DNA of 51,943 nucleotides from contig JAJDTG010000006.1 of assembly GCA_022827275.1 (NCBI GenBank), forward strand, positions 1-51,943. The letters are read 5' to 3'. Shown here piece by piece: positions 1,688-21,376 of the stretch. Position 1 is the stretch's first letter. The number at the start of each line of letters is the position of its first letter. This stretch comes from Candidatus Dadabacteria bacterium. Lineage in GTDB: Bacteria > Desulfobacterota_D > UBA1144 > Nemesobacterales > Nemesobacteraceae. Both the position numbers and the translations under genes were made by a program. The notes below the pieces were generated by a model. It ran no database searches, was not told the DNA's origin, and was given only the letters and a program-made list of their open reading frames with translations.

Positions 1688-4012
1688 TCAGAACAAATTG
1701 CCAATGGTAAACTGTACTTCATACTTTTCCTCGTCCTGAAGCCTTTCGCCTATCGGGAATCCAATATCAAGCTTCATTGGCCCCAGGGGAGATATCCACC
1801 TGATACCGAAACCGGCATCCTTCCTGAGATTCGAAGGGTTAAGGCTGAACTCATCCTCATCAAAAGCATTACCTATATCAAAGAAAGCTACAGCCTTAAG
1901 CCCGACAGTTTTGCTTAAAGGAACAACAAAGTCAAGAGATGCAAGAACCTGGTGAACACCACCAATTATTACATACCCCCCGCTATCCGTAGGCCTTCTG
2001 GGACCCACTCTCCTGTAACGGAAGCCTCTTAGCGTGTTCGGACCGCCTAGAAAGAACCTCTCCTCCACAACAAGATCATCGCCGGCGTCTATGAGATGCA
2101 AGAGCCCGTAATCCGCCTTTGCGGCAAAATACGTGCCTTTCCAGACCGGAATCCAGGATTTGGCCGTGGCGTTATACTTTATAAAATCGGTGTTGCCCGC
2201 AAAAAGCCCGGCGTACTCAACTGCGGTACTCAGAAGAAAACCCTTCGTGGGATCGAGATAATTGTTTCTTTTATCCCAAGACAGCCCTACCCCGGTCGAA
2301 ACTATAGTTCTCTCCGTTTCGGACAGGACAAGCTGCGCATCCCCGCGGACATTGTGCACATCCTGCTTTGAGAATTCCTGAAAAACCCGGACTTGGAAAT
2401 ATCTCTTTATTCTTCTTCCCACACCAAGAGAAATGCCTTGGGCCGATCTCTCAAAATCCCTGTAATCCCTGTCATGAGCATACAGGCTGACATCGAAGAG
2501 CCAGTTGGTACCGAAGAAATACGGATCCCGGTAGTTAAGACTCAATGCCTTGGTTACACCTCCGACCTGGGCATCCAGAGAAAGGGTTTTGCCGTATCCG
2601 AAAAGATTGGATTCCTGTATCTGGCCAGAGAAAAGGAAATTCTCCACGGAACTTACACCCCCGCCGAAGCTGAAAAATCCGGTGGGACGTTCTTCAACCT
2701 TTACGTCGACGTCCAGAAGATTCTCTGTCCCCTCAACCCTATGGGTTAGCACCTCGATGTTTTCCTCAAAGTAACCAAGGCGAGCAGCCTCGTAACGGGC
2801 GGCTCTTAGCTTGGAAACGCTGTATAGGCTCTGCTCCTGAAGTGAGAATTCCCTTCTTACGACATGGTCTCTCGTCCTGGTGTTATCCAAGATGTTTATG
2901 TTTCTTATGTATACTTCCTCGCCTTTTTCAATCGAGTAATCGATGCTGACGAGGTTGTTTTCCTTATCAAGCCGCACATCAGGAGTTACGTTAGCAAAAG
3001 CATATCCCTTATCCCCGTAGAAGTCGGTTATTTCCCCGATGTCGTCCTGAAGAACGAAACTGCTGAAAACAGAGTCCGGCAAGAGCTTGAGTTTTGGGCG
3101 GATTTCATCCTGATCTCCAGTCAGTTCTCCGGAGAAAGTTATCCTGGATACCTTGTACTGAACCCCCTCTTCTATTGAGAAACTTACTACATAGCCGTCT
3201 TTTCCCTCATCGTAACGAATTCCAGGTTCAGAAACCCTTACGTCAAGATATCCGTTATCAATGTAAGTCGCTTTTATTCTGTTGGAATCCCTTTTTATCT
3301 CTTCAATTTTGAAAAGCCCTCTCTTCGTTATGAAAGAGAGAAAGTACTTGGGCTTTGAATACATGTTTTTTCTGATCTTCTTCGTCTCGATCTTGCTGTT
3401 TCCAACAAGCTCAACTTCCTTTATGTACTTTCTTTCTCCCTCGTCAATCCTGTAAACGACATCAACAACGCCATCTCCTCTGGGTTCGATCTCATATTCG
3501 ACATCAGTTCCAACCAACCCCTTCTCGGAAGCAAGGGCAAGTATTATTTCCCTGCCCTCAGTGATTTTCCTCAGGCTTACGATACGTCCTTCTCTGAATG
3601 CTAAGGCTTCCTTTATATCGTCTTCCTTTAACTTGTCGTTTCCGGAAAGCTTAAGGTCTGCAAGTACCGGGTTCTCTTCAACGACAAACTCAACCCTGAG
3701 ACCACCTTCAATTGGTTTGACGTCAACAAGAACCTGCTGGAAGAAGTCAAGCTTGTATATTCTTTTCAGGTCCTCTTTTACGGTCTGCGGGGAATATTCA
3801 TCTCCCTGCTTGGTCTCTATATTTAGATCTATAAGGGAAGTTTCGGTTCTTCGGTTGCCGGAGATTACTAGCTCGGCGACTGTACCTTTGAAGGACTGGG
3901 ACTCTTCAAGCTCCGCTCCGGCGGGGCGGCCCTGAGCCATGAGACCCGTGGCTGAGAAAGTCGCAACAACAAGAAAAACAGCCAAATAAAATACAAGCCC
4001 TTTAGTTCGCAT
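1688..4012 (-). CDS. bamA: Outer membrane protein assembly factor BamA
   Basis: The essential Omp85 core of the beta-barrel assembly machine. An N-terminal signal (KGLVFYLAVFLVVATFSATG) leads into five POTRA repeats (about residues 40-420) and then the 16-stranded Omp85 barrel. The barrel contains the RGFRYRRVGPR-type L6 motif and ends in Phe (TIGNLF), the beta-signal required for insertion. The total of about 774 residues is normal. I chose the ATG at 4012; a TTG two codons upstream (4018) is also possible. The start overlaps the 3' end of lolD, so translation is probably coupled. skp and fabZ follow. Confidence 0.96.
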   Translation of the reverse strand: MRTKGLVFYLAVFLVVATFSATGLMAQGRPAGAELEESQSFKGTVAELVISGNRRTETSLIDLNIETKQGDEYSPQTVKEDLKRIYKLDFFQQVLVDVKPIEGGLRVEFVVEENPVLADLKLSGNDKLKEDDIKEALAFREGRIVSLRKITEGREIILALASEKGLVGTDVEYEIEPRGDGVVDVVYRIDEGERKYIKEVELVGNSKIETKKIRKNMYSKPKYFLSFITKRGLFKIEEIKRDSNRIKATYIDNGYLDVRVSEPGIRYDEGKDGYVVSFSIEEGVQYKVSRITFSGELTGDQDEIRPKLKLLPDSVFSSFVLQDDIGEITDFYGDKGYAFANVTPDVRLDKENNLVSIDYSIEKGEEVYIRNINILDNTRTRDHVVRREFSLQEQSLYSVSKLRAARYEAARLGYFEENIEVLTHRVEGTENLLDVDVKVEERPTGFFSFGGGVSSVENFLFSGQIQESNLFGYGKTLSLDAQVGGVTKALSLNYRDPYFFGTNWLFDVSLYAHDRDYRDFERSAQGISLGVGRRIKRYFQVRVFQEFSKQDVHNVRGDAQLVLSETERTIVSTGVGLSWDKRNNYLDPTKGFLLSTAVEYAGLFAGNTDFIKYNATAKSWIPVWKGTYFAAKADYGLLHLIDAGDDLVVEERFFLGGPNTLRGFRYRRVGPRRPTDSGGYVIIGGVHQVLASLDFVVPLSKTVGLKAVAFFDIGNAFDEDEFSLNPSNLRKDAGFGIRWISPLGPMKLDIGFPIGERLQDEEKYEVQFTIGNLF

Positions 4013-4697
4013 CGGCAACCATCCCGTCTGATATTCTAACAGTTTTTTTCATCCTCTTCGCAAATTCGTCGTTGTGAGTCACCATAACGACCGTAACCCC
4101 GTAATCCTCGTTAAGCCTGCAGAACAGATCGAGAACCGAGAATCCCGTTTTCTTGTCAAGATTCCCGGTGGGTTCATCGGCGAGTATCACCTCCGGTTCT
4201 CTGACCATCGATCTGGCAATCGCCACTCGCTGCTGTTCCCCCCCGGAAAGCTCTCCCGGAAGATGGTTAAGACGCTCAGAAAGTCCCACCCTCTCAAGCA
4301 CCTCACAAGCCTTTTGTCTCGCTACTGCAGAGCTCTGCCTGTCTATAAGACACGGCATCATAACGTTCTCAAGTGCGGTGAATTCCATAAGAAGGTAATG
4401 AAATTGAAAAATAAATCCAATTTCCGAGTTCCTGAAAACCGAAAGCTCTTCTTCATCCTGGCTGAAAAGATCCTTCCCACGGTAGAAAACCGAACCTTCT
4501 GTCGGGGGCTCAAGAGTGCCAAGTATGTGAAGAAGTGTGCTTTTCCCCGAACCTGATACCCCCACGACTCCAAGGGTTTCTCCGGCAGAGATATCCATAT
4601 CCACTCCGCCAAGAGCGCACACTCTGCTGCCCGACTTGCTGAAAACTTTTTCCAGTCCCCTGACCCTGTACAGCAGCTCACTGGGAATTATAGTCAT
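4002..4697 (-). CDS. lolD: Lipoprotein-releasing ABC transporter ATP-binding subunit LolD
   Basis: A 231-residue ABC ATPase of the MacB/LolD class. Walker A GVSGSGKST, signature LSGGEQQRVAIAR, Walker B VILADEPTGNLD and H-loop VVMVTHND are all intact. With LolC/E it pulls mature lipoproteins out of the inner membrane and hands them to LolA. Its ATG lies only 2 nt after the TAG of the tnpB gene that separates it from lolC. The only Shine-Dalgarno-like GAGG upstream lies inside the last codons of tnpB. Its first five codons are part of a 24-nt inverted repeat that recurs after lolC. The 3' end overlaps bamA. Confidence 0.94.
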   Translation of the reverse strand: MTIIPSELLYRVRGLEKVFSKSGSRVCALGGVDMDISAGETLGVVGVSGSGKSTLLHILGTLEPPTEGSVFYRGKDLFSQDEEELSVFRNSEIGFIFQFHYLLMEFTALENVMMPCLIDRQSSAVARQKACEVLERVGLSERLNHLPGELSGGEQQRVAIARSMVREPEVILADEPTGNLDKKTGFSVLDLFCRLNEDYGVTVVMVTHNDEFAKRMKKTVRISDGMVADAN

Positions 4698-4707
4698 AAC
4701 TAGACAG
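4684..4707. repeat. Right arm of inverted repeat bracketing tnpB
   Basis: On the minus strand this arm starts CTGTCTAGTT and ends TAATTCC. It matches the plus strand at 5905-5928 at 21 of 24 positions. The arm covers the tnpB stop codon, the 2-nt gap and the first codons of lolD including the ATG. Confidence 0.85.
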
Positions 4708-4800
4708 TTACCTCTACTGTTCTTGGCCGAGCAAGGGCAACCCCCTGCTTATCTCTCATCCTTCCGACCATGCGGGACTGCTTGAGTCTCCCACCCGCAA
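4698..4800 (-). ncRNA. Candidate omega-RNA (reRNA) scaffold at the tnpB 3' end
   Basis: TnpB proteins work with an RNA made from the 3' part of their own gene and the element's right end. Two hairpins are visible here on the minus strand. One at 4772-4798 has outer stem GCGGG/CCCGC and inner GACT/AGT. The other at 4731-4748 is a 7-bp stem (GCAGGGG/CCCTTGC, one G-U pair) with loop GTTG. If the element ends at the stop codon, the guide would be read from the lolD start. The position follows the known family architecture; the exact ends are inference. Confidence 0.3.
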
Positions 4801-5887
4801 CCGAGATGCCTCGATGAAGGATATTTATTGCCGCGTTTACATCCCTGTCCAACACAAGTCCGCAATTACATCTGTGAACTCTTGTAGACAAGTCTTTCTT
4901 GACTACCGCTCCGCAACTTGAGCATTCCTGCGAAGTTCCCTCGGGATTCACTGCCACTACAATAACGCCAGCACTTTCAGCCTTCTCGTTAAGCAGGGTT
5001 ATGAACTTCCCCCAGGTCTGCTCCTGTATGCTCCTTGCAAGATTCCCGTTACGAAGCATGTTCTTTGTCTTAAGCTTCTCCACAACTATGAAATCGTACA
5101 TCTTTACTATCTCAGCACTCAGGCGATGAAGATAATCTCTTTCCTTGTCCGCTACCCTCTGCCATTCTTTTCCTAGCAACAAAACTGCCTTCTTTCTGTT
5201 GTTACTCCCTTTCTTTTTGCGTGAGACGGAACGCTGAAGACGTTTTAACTCCTTTCTGTCTATCTCCCTCTTCTCCACAGTCTCACCGTTACTTGTGGTA
5301 AGACGCTTCGATATCCCCATGTCTATCCCAACGGGGTTGTTCAGTGGCTTTGTCTCGGGAACCGGCACCTCATATGATAATGCTACTTCCGTGCGCAAAG
5401 GCTTTTTTGTAATCCGTATCGCTTTTAGCAATGCGTTCGGCGGCAGTTCCCTTTTCGTTTTTACTTCAATGCGGGGAAGTCCCTTTATCCTGAGAACAAG
5501 CTTATCACCCTGTCTCTTCAGCATCTGCCAGCACTGGTCGTTTATCTCTATCGTTCTCCAACGTCTTGAGCTCTTGAACCGGGGGAAGCCTGCTTTCTCC
5601 TTAGCTCCCATCTTCTGGAAAAACAATTTGTACGCCTTGTCTATCCTGCCCACAACCCCTCGGAACACCTGAACGCTTATATCGGCATACTCGGGATCAT
5701 CTGCCCTCACTTCGGTAAGCGCTTTGCACTGATCGTAATATGAGCGGGATTTGCCTGTCTTCTTGTAGTAGTCAATACGCTCCTCAAGGCAGGCGTTGTA
5801 GAGCGTGGCACACATCCCAAATACACGGGAAAGCGCTTCATGTCCCGAACAGGACAGCTTCGCACGGCATTTGTAAGTCTTTATCAT
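4700..5887 (-). CDS. tnpB: TnpB RNA-guided nuclease, IS200/IS605 OrfB family (copy 1)
   Basis: About 395 residues, full length for the family. It begins with the typical IKTYKCRAKL N-terminus and an HTH-like OrfB domain. The three RuvC acidic residues are all present: Asp near 189 in VGIDMGI, Glu near 270 in VVEKLKTKNM, and Asp near 349 in DRDVNAAINI. A zinc ribbon CSSC...CNC sits between the last two; its second half is CxC rather than CxxC. No TnpA (Y1 transposase) gene accompanies it, so it is a solitary IS1341-type gene. It lies exactly between lolC and lolD, in the same direction and without a frameshift. The ATG at 5887 was chosen over the adjoining GTG at 5890. Confidence 0.93.
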   Translation of the reverse strand: MIKTYKCRAKLSCSGHEALSRVFGMCATLYNACLEERIDYYKKTGKSRSYYDQCKALTEVRADDPEYADISVQVFRGVVGRIDKAYKLFFQKMGAKEKAGFPRFKSSRRWRTIEINDQCWQMLKRQGDKLVLRIKGLPRIEVKTKRELPPNALLKAIRITKKPLRTEVALSYEVPVPETKPLNNPVGIDMGISKRLTTSNGETVEKREIDRKELKRLQRSVSRKKKGSNNRKKAVLLLGKEWQRVADKERDYLHRLSAEIVKMYDFIVVEKLKTKNMLRNGNLARSIQEQTWGKFITLLNEKAESAGVIVVAVNPEGTSQECSSCGAVVKKDLSTRVHRCNCGLVLDRDVNAAINILHRGISVAGGRLKQSRMVGRMRDKQGVALARPRTVEVTV

Positions 5888-5904
5888 CACTATATCGTAC
5901 TCGG

Positions 5905-5928
5905 CTGTCTAGTTGTCACTGTAATTCC
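5905..5928. repeat. Left arm of inverted repeat bracketing tnpB
   Basis: This is the plus-strand counterpart of 4684-4707, beginning CTGTCTAGTT with three mismatches over 24 nt. It lies in the 45-nt gap between the lolC stop and the tnpB start, 4 nt from the lolC stop codon. Confidence 0.85.
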
Positions 5929-5932
5929 TGTT

Positions 5933-7228
5933 TCACTCATATCTCAATGACTCCACGGGGTTTTCTCTCGAAGCCCTGTAAGACGGGTAGAGAGTTGCAA
6001 GAAAGCATATAAGCAGGCTTGACGCCGCCACGACGAGAAAATAAACCGGTTCTATCCTAACAGGAAATTCAGAAATAGGGTACACGTTATCATCAAAGGG
6101 GATCGCTTCCTTTATAAAATTGCTGGTCTCAAGAAAGCGGCAGATCAGATATCCGAAAAGCGTGCCGAGAAGAGTTCCAGCGGTGCCTATTATCATTCCG
6201 TCATAGACAAATATCCTTCTGATGCCGCTTTTACGAGCTCCCATGGAAATGAGCACGGCTATATCCCTTTTTTTCTCCATAACAAGCATTGTAAGCGTGC
6301 TGACTATGTTCAAGGCGGCGACAAGAACTATAAACCCGAGAAATATTCCTATTGCCATTCTCTCAAGGCGAAGTGCCCTGAAAAGACTTCTGTTTGAGTC
6401 CTCCCAGTTCTTCGCGTAAAAAGGAAAACCGAGAGTTTCGGTTATTTCATCCCCTGTTTTGCGCGCCTGGTATATGTCGTCCACCCTGACTTCTATTCCC
6501 GTTATCCTGCTTTTTGTTTCGAAGAAATTCATGGCATCCTCAAGCGATACGTAAGCGGTAGATGAATCGTATTCAATCATGCCGTAATCAAAAACCCCGA
6601 TTACGCTGAATTTTCTTATCTTGGCCGTGGGGCCGAAAGGGCCGATCTTCCCGTAAGGAGAGACCAGATTGACGGTATCCCCGATTGCCGCACCAATCAG
6701 GTCCGAGAGTTCCGTGCCTATGATAATCGGAGGGTGACCGGAAGCCGTCTTGTCGAGGAGTCTCGAGATAATCCGGGTGCCTTCCTCAGAAAGGGTGTCA
6801 CGGCTCTTATTCTCCTTCGGCAGACTGCCCTTCCCAACCGCTTCTGCCACAGCGGCAACCGCGGCCGAATTGTTCGGGTCTATTCCTCTTATGACCGAAC
6901 CCGATGTCGCGTATTCCGTGACGAGCATGCCGTGGTTGTAAATAAACGGGCTCGTCGAAGCTACGCCTGGAAGCCGTGCAAGCCTCTTCTCCACCTCCGC
7001 AAAATCTCCAAAATCTCCTTCGTAGCTCATTACGACTACATGGGAGCTTGCGCCGATTATCTTATCCCTGAGCTCATCCTCAAACCCCTTCATAACCGAG
7101 AGCACCACGTCAAGCGAAGCCACTCCCAGGAAAACACCCAGAATGGAGATTAAACCTATTACGGAGAGGAAACCCCGCCCAGTTCCCGATTTCAGGTACC
7201 TAAGAGAAATTAGAGATTCGTAACTCAT
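5933..7228 (-). CDS. lolC: Lipoprotein-releasing system transmembrane protein LolC/LolE family
   Basis: A 431-residue FtsX/MacB-type permease. One membrane helix near residues 20-42 is followed by a large periplasmic domain (about 45-280) and three C-terminal helices in the FtsX domain (about 285-410). It ends NPVESLRYE, the usual tail of LolC/E. It forms the membrane channel of the LolCDE exporter; only one LolC/E-type gene is present, as in bacteria with a homodimeric LolF-like permease. The ATG follows the lysS stop by 1 nt. Its natural partner lolD is displaced about 1.2 kb downstream by tnpB. Confidence 0.93.
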   Translation of the reverse strand: MSYESLISLRYLKSGTGRGFLSVIGLISILGVFLGVASLDVVLSVMKGFEDELRDKIIGASSHVVVMSYEGDFGDFAEVEKRLARLPGVASTSPFIYNHGMLVTEYATSGSVIRGIDPNNSAAVAAVAEAVGKGSLPKENKSRDTLSEEGTRIISRLLDKTASGHPPIIIGTELSDLIGAAIGDTVNLVSPYGKIGPFGPTAKIRKFSVIGVFDYGMIEYDSSTAYVSLEDAMNFFETKSRITGIEVRVDDIYQARKTGDEITETLGFPFYAKNWEDSNRSLFRALRLERMAIGIFLGFIVLVAALNIVSTLTMLVMEKKRDIAVLISMGARKSGIRRIFVYDGMIIGTAGTLLGTLFGYLICRFLETSNFIKEAIPFDDNVYPISEFPVRIEPVYFLVVAASSLLICFLATLYPSYRASRENPVESLRYE

Positions 7229-11474: not shown

Positions 11475-11485
11475 AATTCAGGGGA

Positions 11486-11513
11486 ATTATACAGGAAAGT
11501 TTACAAAATTATA
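11486..11513 (-). promoter_or_regulatory. Candidate pyrR promoter region with two -10 boxes
   Basis: Two perfect TATAAT hexamers lie on the minus strand, at 11508-11513 and 11486-11491. The closer one, in the context TGTATAAT, is 11 nt from the pyrR ATG, so a transcript from it would have almost no leader. The upstream one has a weak TTGTGC 15 bp before it. The remaining gap to 11735 holds no recognisable gene. Confidence 0.4.
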
Positions 11514-19969: not shown

Positions 19970-20004
19970 TACTGTTTTCCCGATTTGTGAGATATGGTAT
20001 GGAA

Positions 20005-20032
20005 ATTATATACCTAATCACCCTTAGAGTAA
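20005..20032 (-). promoter_or_regulatory. Candidate promoter of the HAD hydrolase gene
   Basis: Minus-strand -10 TATAAT (20005-20010) within the core GTATATAATT that recurs in this window, with TTACTC 16 bp upstream (20027-20032). The -35 lies in the last codons of tnpB copy 2. The core GAAATTATATAC (20002-20013) is repeated inverted at 21291-21302 on the other side of that gene. Confidence 0.45.
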
Positions 20033-21247
20033 TCTCGTATCAATTTCACGGTTCGCAGGGACTGTGCTAATACCAGAGCCCTCCCCGTGCAGTCGCGCCA
20101 TTCCCAGACGCCTTATGTTAATTGCGGCATTCGTGTCCGCATTGGACGCAAAACCGCAATTAACACACAGGAACCGTGCTTGGTTTTTACGGTTCTCTTT
20201 ATCTGTATGTCCGCAGTCAGAGCACCTCTGAGATGTATATGCGGGATTTACTTCTATAACTCTTCCACACTTGTACTCAAGATTTCTTCTTATCTTCCCA
20301 AAAGCAGTATCGAGCATCGCCCTATTAAGTCCGGCCTTCTGCTTCACGTTCCTCCCCGGATTCTCTATCGTACCCTTGGCAGAAGCGGTCATGTTCTTTA
20401 CCTTAAGATATTCCACGACCACCGTTCCGCATTTCCCGGAAATCTCTTTTGTAGTTTGGTGAATCCAGTCCTTACGTATATTGGCTATCTTTCTGCTTAC
20501 TTTTCCAAGCTTCCTCTTTGTGTCCTTCCTTCTGTTAGACCCCTTAATCTGCCTTGCCATTTTCCTCTGATACCACTTTCTTCGTTTCTCTTTTTTCTCC
20601 AAATCCGGCAGGAAGTAGAAATGTCCATCGGAAGTGGCTATCTGGCGAATGTTCATATCAACTCCGAGAACTTCTCTATTGTCCATTTTTTCTTCTACTT
20701 CGACCTCGTAGGAGACAAAGGCTCTCCACCTACACCCGTCATGGCGAAGCACTGCCTGCTTGGGTGTTCCGCCCTTGTAAGAAACACCTCCCCTGCGGGC
20801 AAGTGTTACCCAGCCCACCAAGGGAATAAGAAGTGAAGAATACTTTTTGTTGACCTTCCGTATTCTGACCCCAGCTGAACTTGGTATGGTGAAACTGGGA
20901 GCGGTTTTCTTTCTACTCCTCGGTTTCGGGAAACCCTTTTTGCCTTCCATAGCCTCTTTTAACGCGTCGGCAAAATACTTGAGGGTGTGCTTGATCGGGT
21001 TGGCGGGAAGTTCCAGCATCCACTGCGTCTCATGCCTTAGCCTAGTGAACTCCACGCCGAGTGAGAAGTAGCTGGTCTTCGGTTTTTCTCCCTTACCGTT
21101 TTTGAATGCTTGGTAGTCGGCAAGGTTCTTTTCCCGAAAATGATTCCAGACATATCGGCAGGCTCCTGCTATTTGGAACATCTTTCTTGCCTTGGTCTTA
21201 GTGGTAGGCAGGACGACAAACTCTACGGTACGTATTTCTTTAGCCAT
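20024..21247 (-). CDS. tnpB: TnpB RNA-guided nuclease, IS200/IS605 OrfB family (copy 2)
   Basis: 407 residues, intact. The RuvC acidic residues are Asp 197 (VLGVDMNIRQIA), Glu 279 (VVVEYLKVKNM) and Asp 371 (NADTNAAINIRR). The zinc ribbon is CSDC...CVNC, the usual CxxC pair. It is too different from copy 1 to be a recent duplicate. No tnpA is adjacent. It starts divergently from the arsenosugar operon and ends 54 nt before the HAD gene start. A short GACTG/CAGTC hairpin near the 3' end could belong to its omega-RNA. The ATG at 21247 matches the family N-terminus. Confidence 0.93.
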   Translation of the reverse strand: MAKEIRTVEFVVLPTTKTKARKMFQIAGACRYVWNHFREKNLADYQAFKNGKGEKPKTSYFSLGVEFTRLRHETQWMLELPANPIKHTLKYFADALKEAMEGKKGFPKPRSRKKTAPSFTIPSSAGVRIRKVNKKYSSLLIPLVGWVTLARRGGVSYKGGTPKQAVLRHDGCRWRAFVSYEVEVEEKMDNREVLGVDMNIRQIATSDGHFYFLPDLEKKEKRRKWYQRKMARQIKGSNRRKDTKRKLGKVSRKIANIRKDWIHQTTKEISGKCGTVVVEYLKVKNMTASAKGTIENPGRNVKQKAGLNRAMLDTAFGKIRRNLEYKCGRVIEVNPAYTSQRCSDCGHTDKENRKNQARFLCVNCGFASNADTNAAINIRRLGMARLHGEGSGISTVPANREIDTRLL

Positions 21248-21271
21248 TACAGTATACTATGCCCAATCGTC

Positions 21272-21299
21272 TTGTTGCTTGGACAAATAAGTATATAAT
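21272..21299 (+). promoter_or_regulatory. Candidate promoter of the arsenosugar-type operon
   Basis: -35 TTGTTG (21272-21277), 16-bp spacer, -10 TATAAT (21294-21299) in the core GTATATAATT. It sits between the divergent tnpB start (21247) and the first gene at 21377. The leader of roughly 70 nt holds no obvious riboswitch. Confidence 0.55.
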
Positions 21300-21376
21300 T
21301 TCTTGTGGTATTTTACTGCCGGGAGAGGCCTATACAAAGAGTCTGCGAATAACACGCAGACGGGAGAAAAAGAAAG

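Follow-up and report, generated by a model that had tools for sequence, protein, structure and literature searches.

We analysed a 51,943-nt stretch of DNA (the window) from contig JAJDTG010000006.1 of a Candidatus Dadabacteria genome (1.77 Mb in 25 contigs), in which a tnpB gene stands between lolC and lolD and is bracketed by a 24-nt inverted repeat. We read this repeat as the pair of terminal inverted repeats (TIRs) of a non-autonomous IS1595-type mobile element with tnpB as its only gene; as a full explanation of the repeat this reading has, in our judgment, a probability of about 0.85. On a wider scale, comparison within the genus makes it probable that IS1595-type DDE elements captured TnpB at least twice; that in one lineage the transposon-associated motif (TAM) is ATG, with insertions landing at gene starts; that a single 24-bp end serves as transposase end, as last stem of the omega-RNA and as a start codon that keeps the reading frame; and that TnpB, not the transposase, fixes which sites persist.

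The two arms, 4684-4707 and 5905-5928, were the sole inverted repeat found by a repeat search within positions 4000-6800; they are 24 nt long, complementary at 21 of 24 positions and spaced by 1,197 nt, and each of them, read on opposite strands, starts with CTGTCTAGTT. The preliminary description of this DNA was right that the repeat is real, that it surrounds tnpB (minus strand) and that its right arm contains the lolD start codon (ATG, 4695-4697). It had also proposed to search the genome for more copies of the arm, and the same end was found at tnpB-element copies on contigs C21, C7, C25 and C11, while a reversed control pattern of the end sequence gave no match in the same genome; thus the repeat is not a product of chance. 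By mapping of TIRs and target site duplications (TSDs), with comparison of about 30 copies and 12 empty sites, the element was delimited to 4683-5929 (1,247 bp, minus strand), slightly exceeding the arms. The left TIR (5906-5929, minus strand) is AGGAATTACAGTGACAACTAGACA in the sense of tnpB, and the copies on C7 and C25 have the same end; the right TIR (4683-4706, plus strand) begins with GGGAATTATAG and reads GGGAATTATAGTCATAACTAGACA inward. Outside the TIRs lie the two copies of an 8-bp TSD, AGTGAAAC on the left (5930-5937, minus strand) and AGTGAGCT on the right (4675-4682, minus strand), the latter made of lolD codons and forming the first bases of the predicted guide, so that the whole arrangement is GATATG-AGTGAAAC-element (AGGAATTACAG...CTATAATTCCC)-AGTGAGCT-GCTGTAC. 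The left copy has drifted (5/8 identical here, 8/8 at younger copies). A TSD length of 9 bp, suggested by copies L005/L002, was replaced by 8 bp on the basis of copies such as L063. A search of the element against Rfam gave a chance match only.

The state before insertion is seen in 12 congeners. Their empty lolC-lolD junction contains TCATTGAGATATGAGTGAR or a close variant, with the lolC stop overlapping the lolD start; around the point of insertion it reads GAGATATG followed by AGTGA, and lolD starts at that ATG. In the window the element was inserted between the native lolD ATG and the AGTGA formerly next to it. In the comparison with empty junctions that the preliminary description had called for, the repeat was absent from 12 of 12: it is part of the mobile element rather than of lolD. 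The TGA stop of lolC (5933-7228, minus strand) lies within the left TSD copy and is kept; lolD (4002-4697, minus strand) has a changed N-terminus (M- to MTIIP-) and is otherwise intact. The native lolD ATG now opens a leader open reading frame (ORF) of 16 codons, the TAG of which (5890-5892) overlaps the start of tnpB.

The tnpB gene itself (4700-5890, minus strand) encodes a protein of 396 aa with HTH_OrfB, OrfB_IS605 and Cas12f1-like_TNB domains, in which the RuvC D-E-D motifs are intact (GIDMGI at 188, VVEKL at 269 and DRDVNAA at 348). About 30 relatives of the element (tnpB1) were found in the genus, with TIRs starting GGGA(A/C)TTAT and with 8-bp TSDs, the latter exact (8/8) at many copies, e.g. 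L029 (ATAAGACT), L043 (AAACGGAT), L061 (TTATGTTT), L064 (TATATTTA) and L035 (ATAGCTTT). The TIRs vary among tnpB1 subgroups, yet both ends of one element match (24/24 in L060 and L061), as would be expected for the end-sites of a transposase. A second family, tnpB2 (410 aa, ~30% identical), is packaged likewise; its copy in the window occupies 20001-21303 (gene 20030-21256, minus strand), with IS1595-type TIRs matching at 17/24 and the TSD ATACCACA/ATACCATA. For the nearest TnpBs outside the genus, distant proteins from two genomes of the same order (L038, L041), the same generic test gave neither TIR nor TSD. In a tree with long branches and an arbitrary root, L041 groups with tnpB2, apart from tnpB1, a placement consistent with separate captures of the two families. 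Directly downstream of the tnpB2-like gene of L041 (G023:C4, 380-540) we saw a 36-nt repeat, GTTGCAATAAGCGGGCGTTTGCCCGGTTCTATTCCC, in three copies at intervals of about 65 bp; these could be a miniature CRISPR array beside TnpB (type V-U-like).

The same type of TIR bounds elements of 1.8-4.2 kb that encode an IS1595-family transposase (DDE_Tnp_IS1595 with Zn_ribbon_IS1595); these autonomous elements have matching TIRs (24/24) and TSDs (8/8). The TIR closest to that of the window's element belongs to one of them, L098 (in congener G010), where GGGAATTATAGCAACAATTAGACA is identical at both ends and the TSD is 8/8; another, L089, is intact and resides in the window's own genome. The passenger genes of autonomous elements L098, L094 and L089 include those of N6/N4 or D12-class DNA methyltransferases and of proteins without a Pfam match. 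For IS1595 elements, A/T-rich 8-bp repeats and circular excision products have been described, and 8-bp A/T-rich repeats for ISApl4 (PMC12561309); TIRs of IS1595 type together with 8-bp TSDs are what we found in the window's type of element. As the tnpB elements lack the transposase gene that their autonomous counterparts with these ends carry, the window's element is best classed as a non-autonomous IS1595-type element, not as a full member of the family, and it would be mobilised in trans by an IS1595 transposase. The second thought of the preliminary description, that the arms may bound a non-autonomous element dependent on some other transposase, holds up, given the IS1595-type TIRs and TSDs shared with autonomous elements.

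Elements of the IS200/IS605 type have a Y1 (HUH) transposase, TnpA, and neither TIRs nor target duplications, and IS607 has a serine transposase, with a GG crossover and no TSD. Could the window's element still be an ordinary IS200/IS605 or IS1341 element, the imperfect end palindromes of which mimic an inverted repeat? TnpB domains are present, there is a weak palindrome in the arm (TTATgactATAA), and elements with tnpB only are common (IS1341; PMC9956272). Still, we hold this to be extremely improbable: TIRs of 24 nt, with full identity in the two copies named above, and 8-bp TSDs occur at many copies, while Y1 and IS607 transposition make no TSDs, and the element contains no Y1 gene, the sole Y1 transposase match in the genome being an unrelated 290-aa ORF. 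Nor does the element resemble IS607, as it has no second gene inside and has TSDs; no search for a serine transposase was made in the rest of the genome. End palindromes as the origin of the repeat are ruled out by the TSDs and empty sites, unless all of these are coincidental, and the earlier remark that IS200/IS605-type elements should not have such terminal repeats holds for the 24-nt TIRs and 8-bp TSDs. Also very unlikely is the RNA switch that the preliminary description had proposed, in which the arms pair in the lolC-tnpB-lolD mRNA, so that tnpB is looped out and the lolD start is masked. Taken alone, a 24-bp duplex of the arms would be stable (-24.4 kcal/mol), and the lolD ATG does lie inside the right arm; however, when the 1,481-nt transcript was folded with a partition function, arm-arm pairs had a summed probability of only 1.5e-6, as the right arm finds its partners locally, among them those of the omega-RNA stem. 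The repeat is missing from the empty junctions and is present at insertions in hemL, gst, a CDC48-like gene and ccmE, and its function as a TIR explains why the arms match. The fold, the empty sites and the other copies lead us to reject a switch on lolD by mRNA pairing.

We return to the IS1595-type element and to the part that TnpB may play in it. The base directly 5' of the TSD was G in 17 of 17 TSD-supported tnpB1 insertions, mostly as ATG, TG or GG, and, after TSD-based correction of two boundaries, G stood at this position (-1) in all further tnpB1 left ends as well. Among autonomous IS1595 elements it was G in 5 of 14 (p = 1e-4 versus the 17/17 of tnpB1). Elements without tnpB resembling miniature inverted-repeat transposable elements numbered only four, too few for a class of their own, so the comparison drew on single ends within one TIR class: in the TAGACA TIR class, G was found at 10 of 10 independent tnpB sites versus 2 of 18 tnpB-free ends (p = 5e-6). 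The tnpB2 signature differs, being A or G and then A in 17 of 17. In an empty site the signature motif directly adjoins the future guide sequence, which is the position of a TAM; as a sequence signature the predicted TAM consists of a fixed G at -1, with ATG in the window's subgroup. In the window the predicted TAM is the native start codon of lolD (5938-5940, minus strand), which lies directly 5' of the target duplication; the empty sites of the 12 relatives read GATATG|AGTGAR here. Being both orientation-specific and TnpB-family-specific, the signal speaks for a filtering of insertion sites by TnpB function.

From 26 copies we aligned the terminal 170 nt at the right end, and the alignment was folded by RNAalifold with a count of pairs. 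The predicted omega-RNA scaffold (4683-4852, minus strand) comprises the 3' end of tnpB and the right TIR, with several covarying helices. There are seven helices (one a single pair), in which 97.2% of cells are paired; changes on both sides occur in 12 pairs and in 60 cells, the latter against 19.0 expected in shuffles, and the covariation score was 0.290 against 0.156 (0/500 shuffles), with a maximum of 0.105 in slid versions. In the last of these (helix 7; 4690-4717, minus strand) the 3' end of tnpB pairs with the inner right TIR directly before the guide, GUAG at 4717-4714 with CUAU at 4693-4690; double changes affect four of its six pairs, and the same pairs appear in the single-sequence fold. 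The pairing changes with the subgroup: GUAG/CUAU in the window's, GUGUAU/AUACAU and GUCCUU/AAGGAU in others. Since this helix covaries between the 3' end of tnpB and the right TIR, the right TIR appears to double as the 3' end of the predicted guide-RNA scaffold, with the duplicated target following directly as guide. The predicted guide would be about 20 nt of lolD past the right end (4663-4682, minus strand), a prediction based on the biology of TnpB and on where the TAM-like motif lies in empty sites. Covariation thus supports a predicted omega-RNA at the 3' end that reaches the element boundary, as in the obligate mobile element-guided activity (OMEGA) systems, to which the OrfB/TNB domains and RuvC motifs also point. 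The tnpB2 alignment gave no clean consensus fold. In three copies (L045, L060 and L064) the C-terminus of TnpB is frameshifted with its nucleotides conserved, which points to constraint on RNA rather than on protein. These copies suggest either retention for the sake of the RNA or a C-terminal tail that the protein can do without.

The right end carries one more feature. In the window's subgroup it has the form TAG-TT-ATG-NNN-ATA-A(T/G)T-CCC, followed by the duplicated target; in the window itself ATG ACT ATA ATT CCC (MTIIP; 4683-4697, minus strand) is in frame with lolD and would be its replacement start, the stop of tnpB (TAG) lying 2 nt upstream. Insertions directly behind a native ATG were observed in lolD (G000), hemL (G005), a CDC48-like AAA gene (G006) and a GST gene (G008, G013). 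At these sites all uninserted relatives (11-13 each) carry the native ATG directly before the target sequence, and the insertions were therefore exactly behind the start codon; the ATG of the element restores the reading frame (M- to MTIIP-). Two more sites, an AMP-binding gene (L030) and a gene of 126 aa (L002/L005), show the same pattern as judged from their own flanks. By a rough estimate there are about 58,000 ATG triplets, of which about 1,500 are starts, and with these numbers start codons at six of seven sites are not chance; surely selection against disruptive insertions contributes to the bias. With the TAG of the leader ORF overlapping the start of tnpB, and only two bases between the end of tnpB and the new lolD ATG (TAG-TT-ATG), it is plausible that translation of lolD is coupled to termination of tnpB, i.e. 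to ribosomes leaving tnpB.

The G or ATG beside the TSD might reflect the target preference of a particular IS1595 transposase, with TnpB as an inactive passenger. Transposases can show sequence preferences outside the TSD, and in L098, which among autonomous elements has the closest TIR, the TSD is itself preceded by TTG. We regard this explanation as unlikely: within one TIR class G is frequent with tnpB and rare without it (10/10 versus 2/18), at least four tnpB1 TIR classes all show G while tnpB2 shows A or G and then A, and both the omega-RNA and the RuvC motifs are conserved. Doubtful, though deserving some weight, is the idea that the ATG of the right TIR exists only for omega-RNA pairing (GGUAAC with GUUAUG) and that insertion at start codons is purely selection against disruptive sites. 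A local hairpin is indeed predicted, and an ATG TAM combined with purifying selection would enrich starts. But the G of the ATG is unpaired in the fold, left ends and L098 lack the ATG of the right TIR and have other bases at its position, and the 15-nt spacing preserves the frame at 6 of 7 sites. Several observations weigh against our own reading of a tnpB-bearing IS1595-type element whose sites are sorted by TnpB. No transposase gene (DDE_Tnp_IS1595) lies within the element; IS1595 transposases are present in its own genome, but it is a congener, G010, that has the TIR with the best match. The TSD of the window's tnpB1 element is decayed (5/8), and only the analogy of younger copies identifies it as a TSD. 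The controls for transposase preference comprise tens, not hundreds, of sites, with a small set of tnpB-free ends. Also, the insertion at the 3' end of ccmE (L006/L022) is the one clear exception to the start-codon pattern among the seven subgroup sites.

The ccmE-ccmF junction has received two different tnpB1 insertions in two species, L044 (G013:C88) and L006/L022 (G000:C25/C11); in G000 the left end of the element encodes VNYSDN and a stop, replacing the C-terminus of ccmE. Elsewhere in the window, at 11482-11505, there is a lone IS1595-type TIR, GGGAATTATACAGGAAAGTTTACA, with neither partner nor gene; an identical TIR is found at G005:C6:64905.

We propose the following mechanism, in which the nuclease activity, TAM use and expression of TnpB are inferred from sequence. 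An IS1595 transposase would move the element in trans. TnpB with its omega-RNA would then take its guide from the TSD and the adjoining right flank and recognise the motif in the left flank as TAM, and by cutting the unoccupied allele it would promote recapture of the element. The replacement start would keep the host gene translated, probably coupled to termination of tnpB, and thus insertion even into lolD or hemL could be tolerated.

The bacterial TnpB elements surveyed so far are those of IS605, IS607 and IS1341 (PMC9956272), and a search of the literature (with subscription literature outside its scope) gave no earlier report joining TnpB with IS1595, or a bacterial TnpB with a DDE element having TIRs and TSDs. 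With IS200/IS605 and IS1341 (OMEGA) the window's element shares the RuvC D-E-D motifs of TnpB, a predicted omega-RNA that overlaps the 3' end of tnpB, a scaffold ending at the boundary, a guide from the right flank and a TAM in the left flank. Unlike them, it has TIRs and 8-bp TSDs and no Y1 or serine transposase in the element, and its TAM is 8 bp from the left end because of the TSD. The IS1595 family (IS1016-type and passenger-carrying relatives) resembles it in the TIR (GGGAATTAT...), in the A/T-rich 8-bp TSD and in having the family transposase at identical ends in the genus; the window's element differs in being without transposase, with tnpB as the only gene, and in the fixed 5' neighbour of its insertion site. 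The closest parallel is eukaryotic Fanzor, an RNA-guided relative of TnpB that was captured by DNA transposons having TIRs and TSDs (Bao & Jurka 2013, PMC3627910; Yoon et al. 2023, PMC10711439); it too has non-autonomous forms (SfAV), and its guide-RNA scaffold includes TIR and TSD (PMC10711439, PMC3627910). Here, in contrast, the host is a bacterium, and the TSD, which is variable, appears to begin the guide rather than to belong to the scaffold; start-codon replacement is not described for Fanzor. In IStrons (a group I intron with an insertion sequence) the inserted gene is restored by RNA splicing (PMC4227781). Both are ways derived from insertion sequences to make gene insertions harmless, but in the window's element it is the end that supplies a new in-frame start codon.

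In IS200/IS605 elements the TAM coincides with the target site of the transposase itself, which makes them indistinguishable. With TnpB in a DDE element, the effect of the nuclease on retention of a site becomes separable from the preference of the transposase, since tnpB-free relatives share the same ends. A TAM prediction is now available for a new compact TnpB. An element end that replaces the start codon would be a new way to make transposon insertions in essential genes harmless, and the element as a whole would be a bacterial parallel to the capture of Fanzor by eukaryotic DNA transposons.
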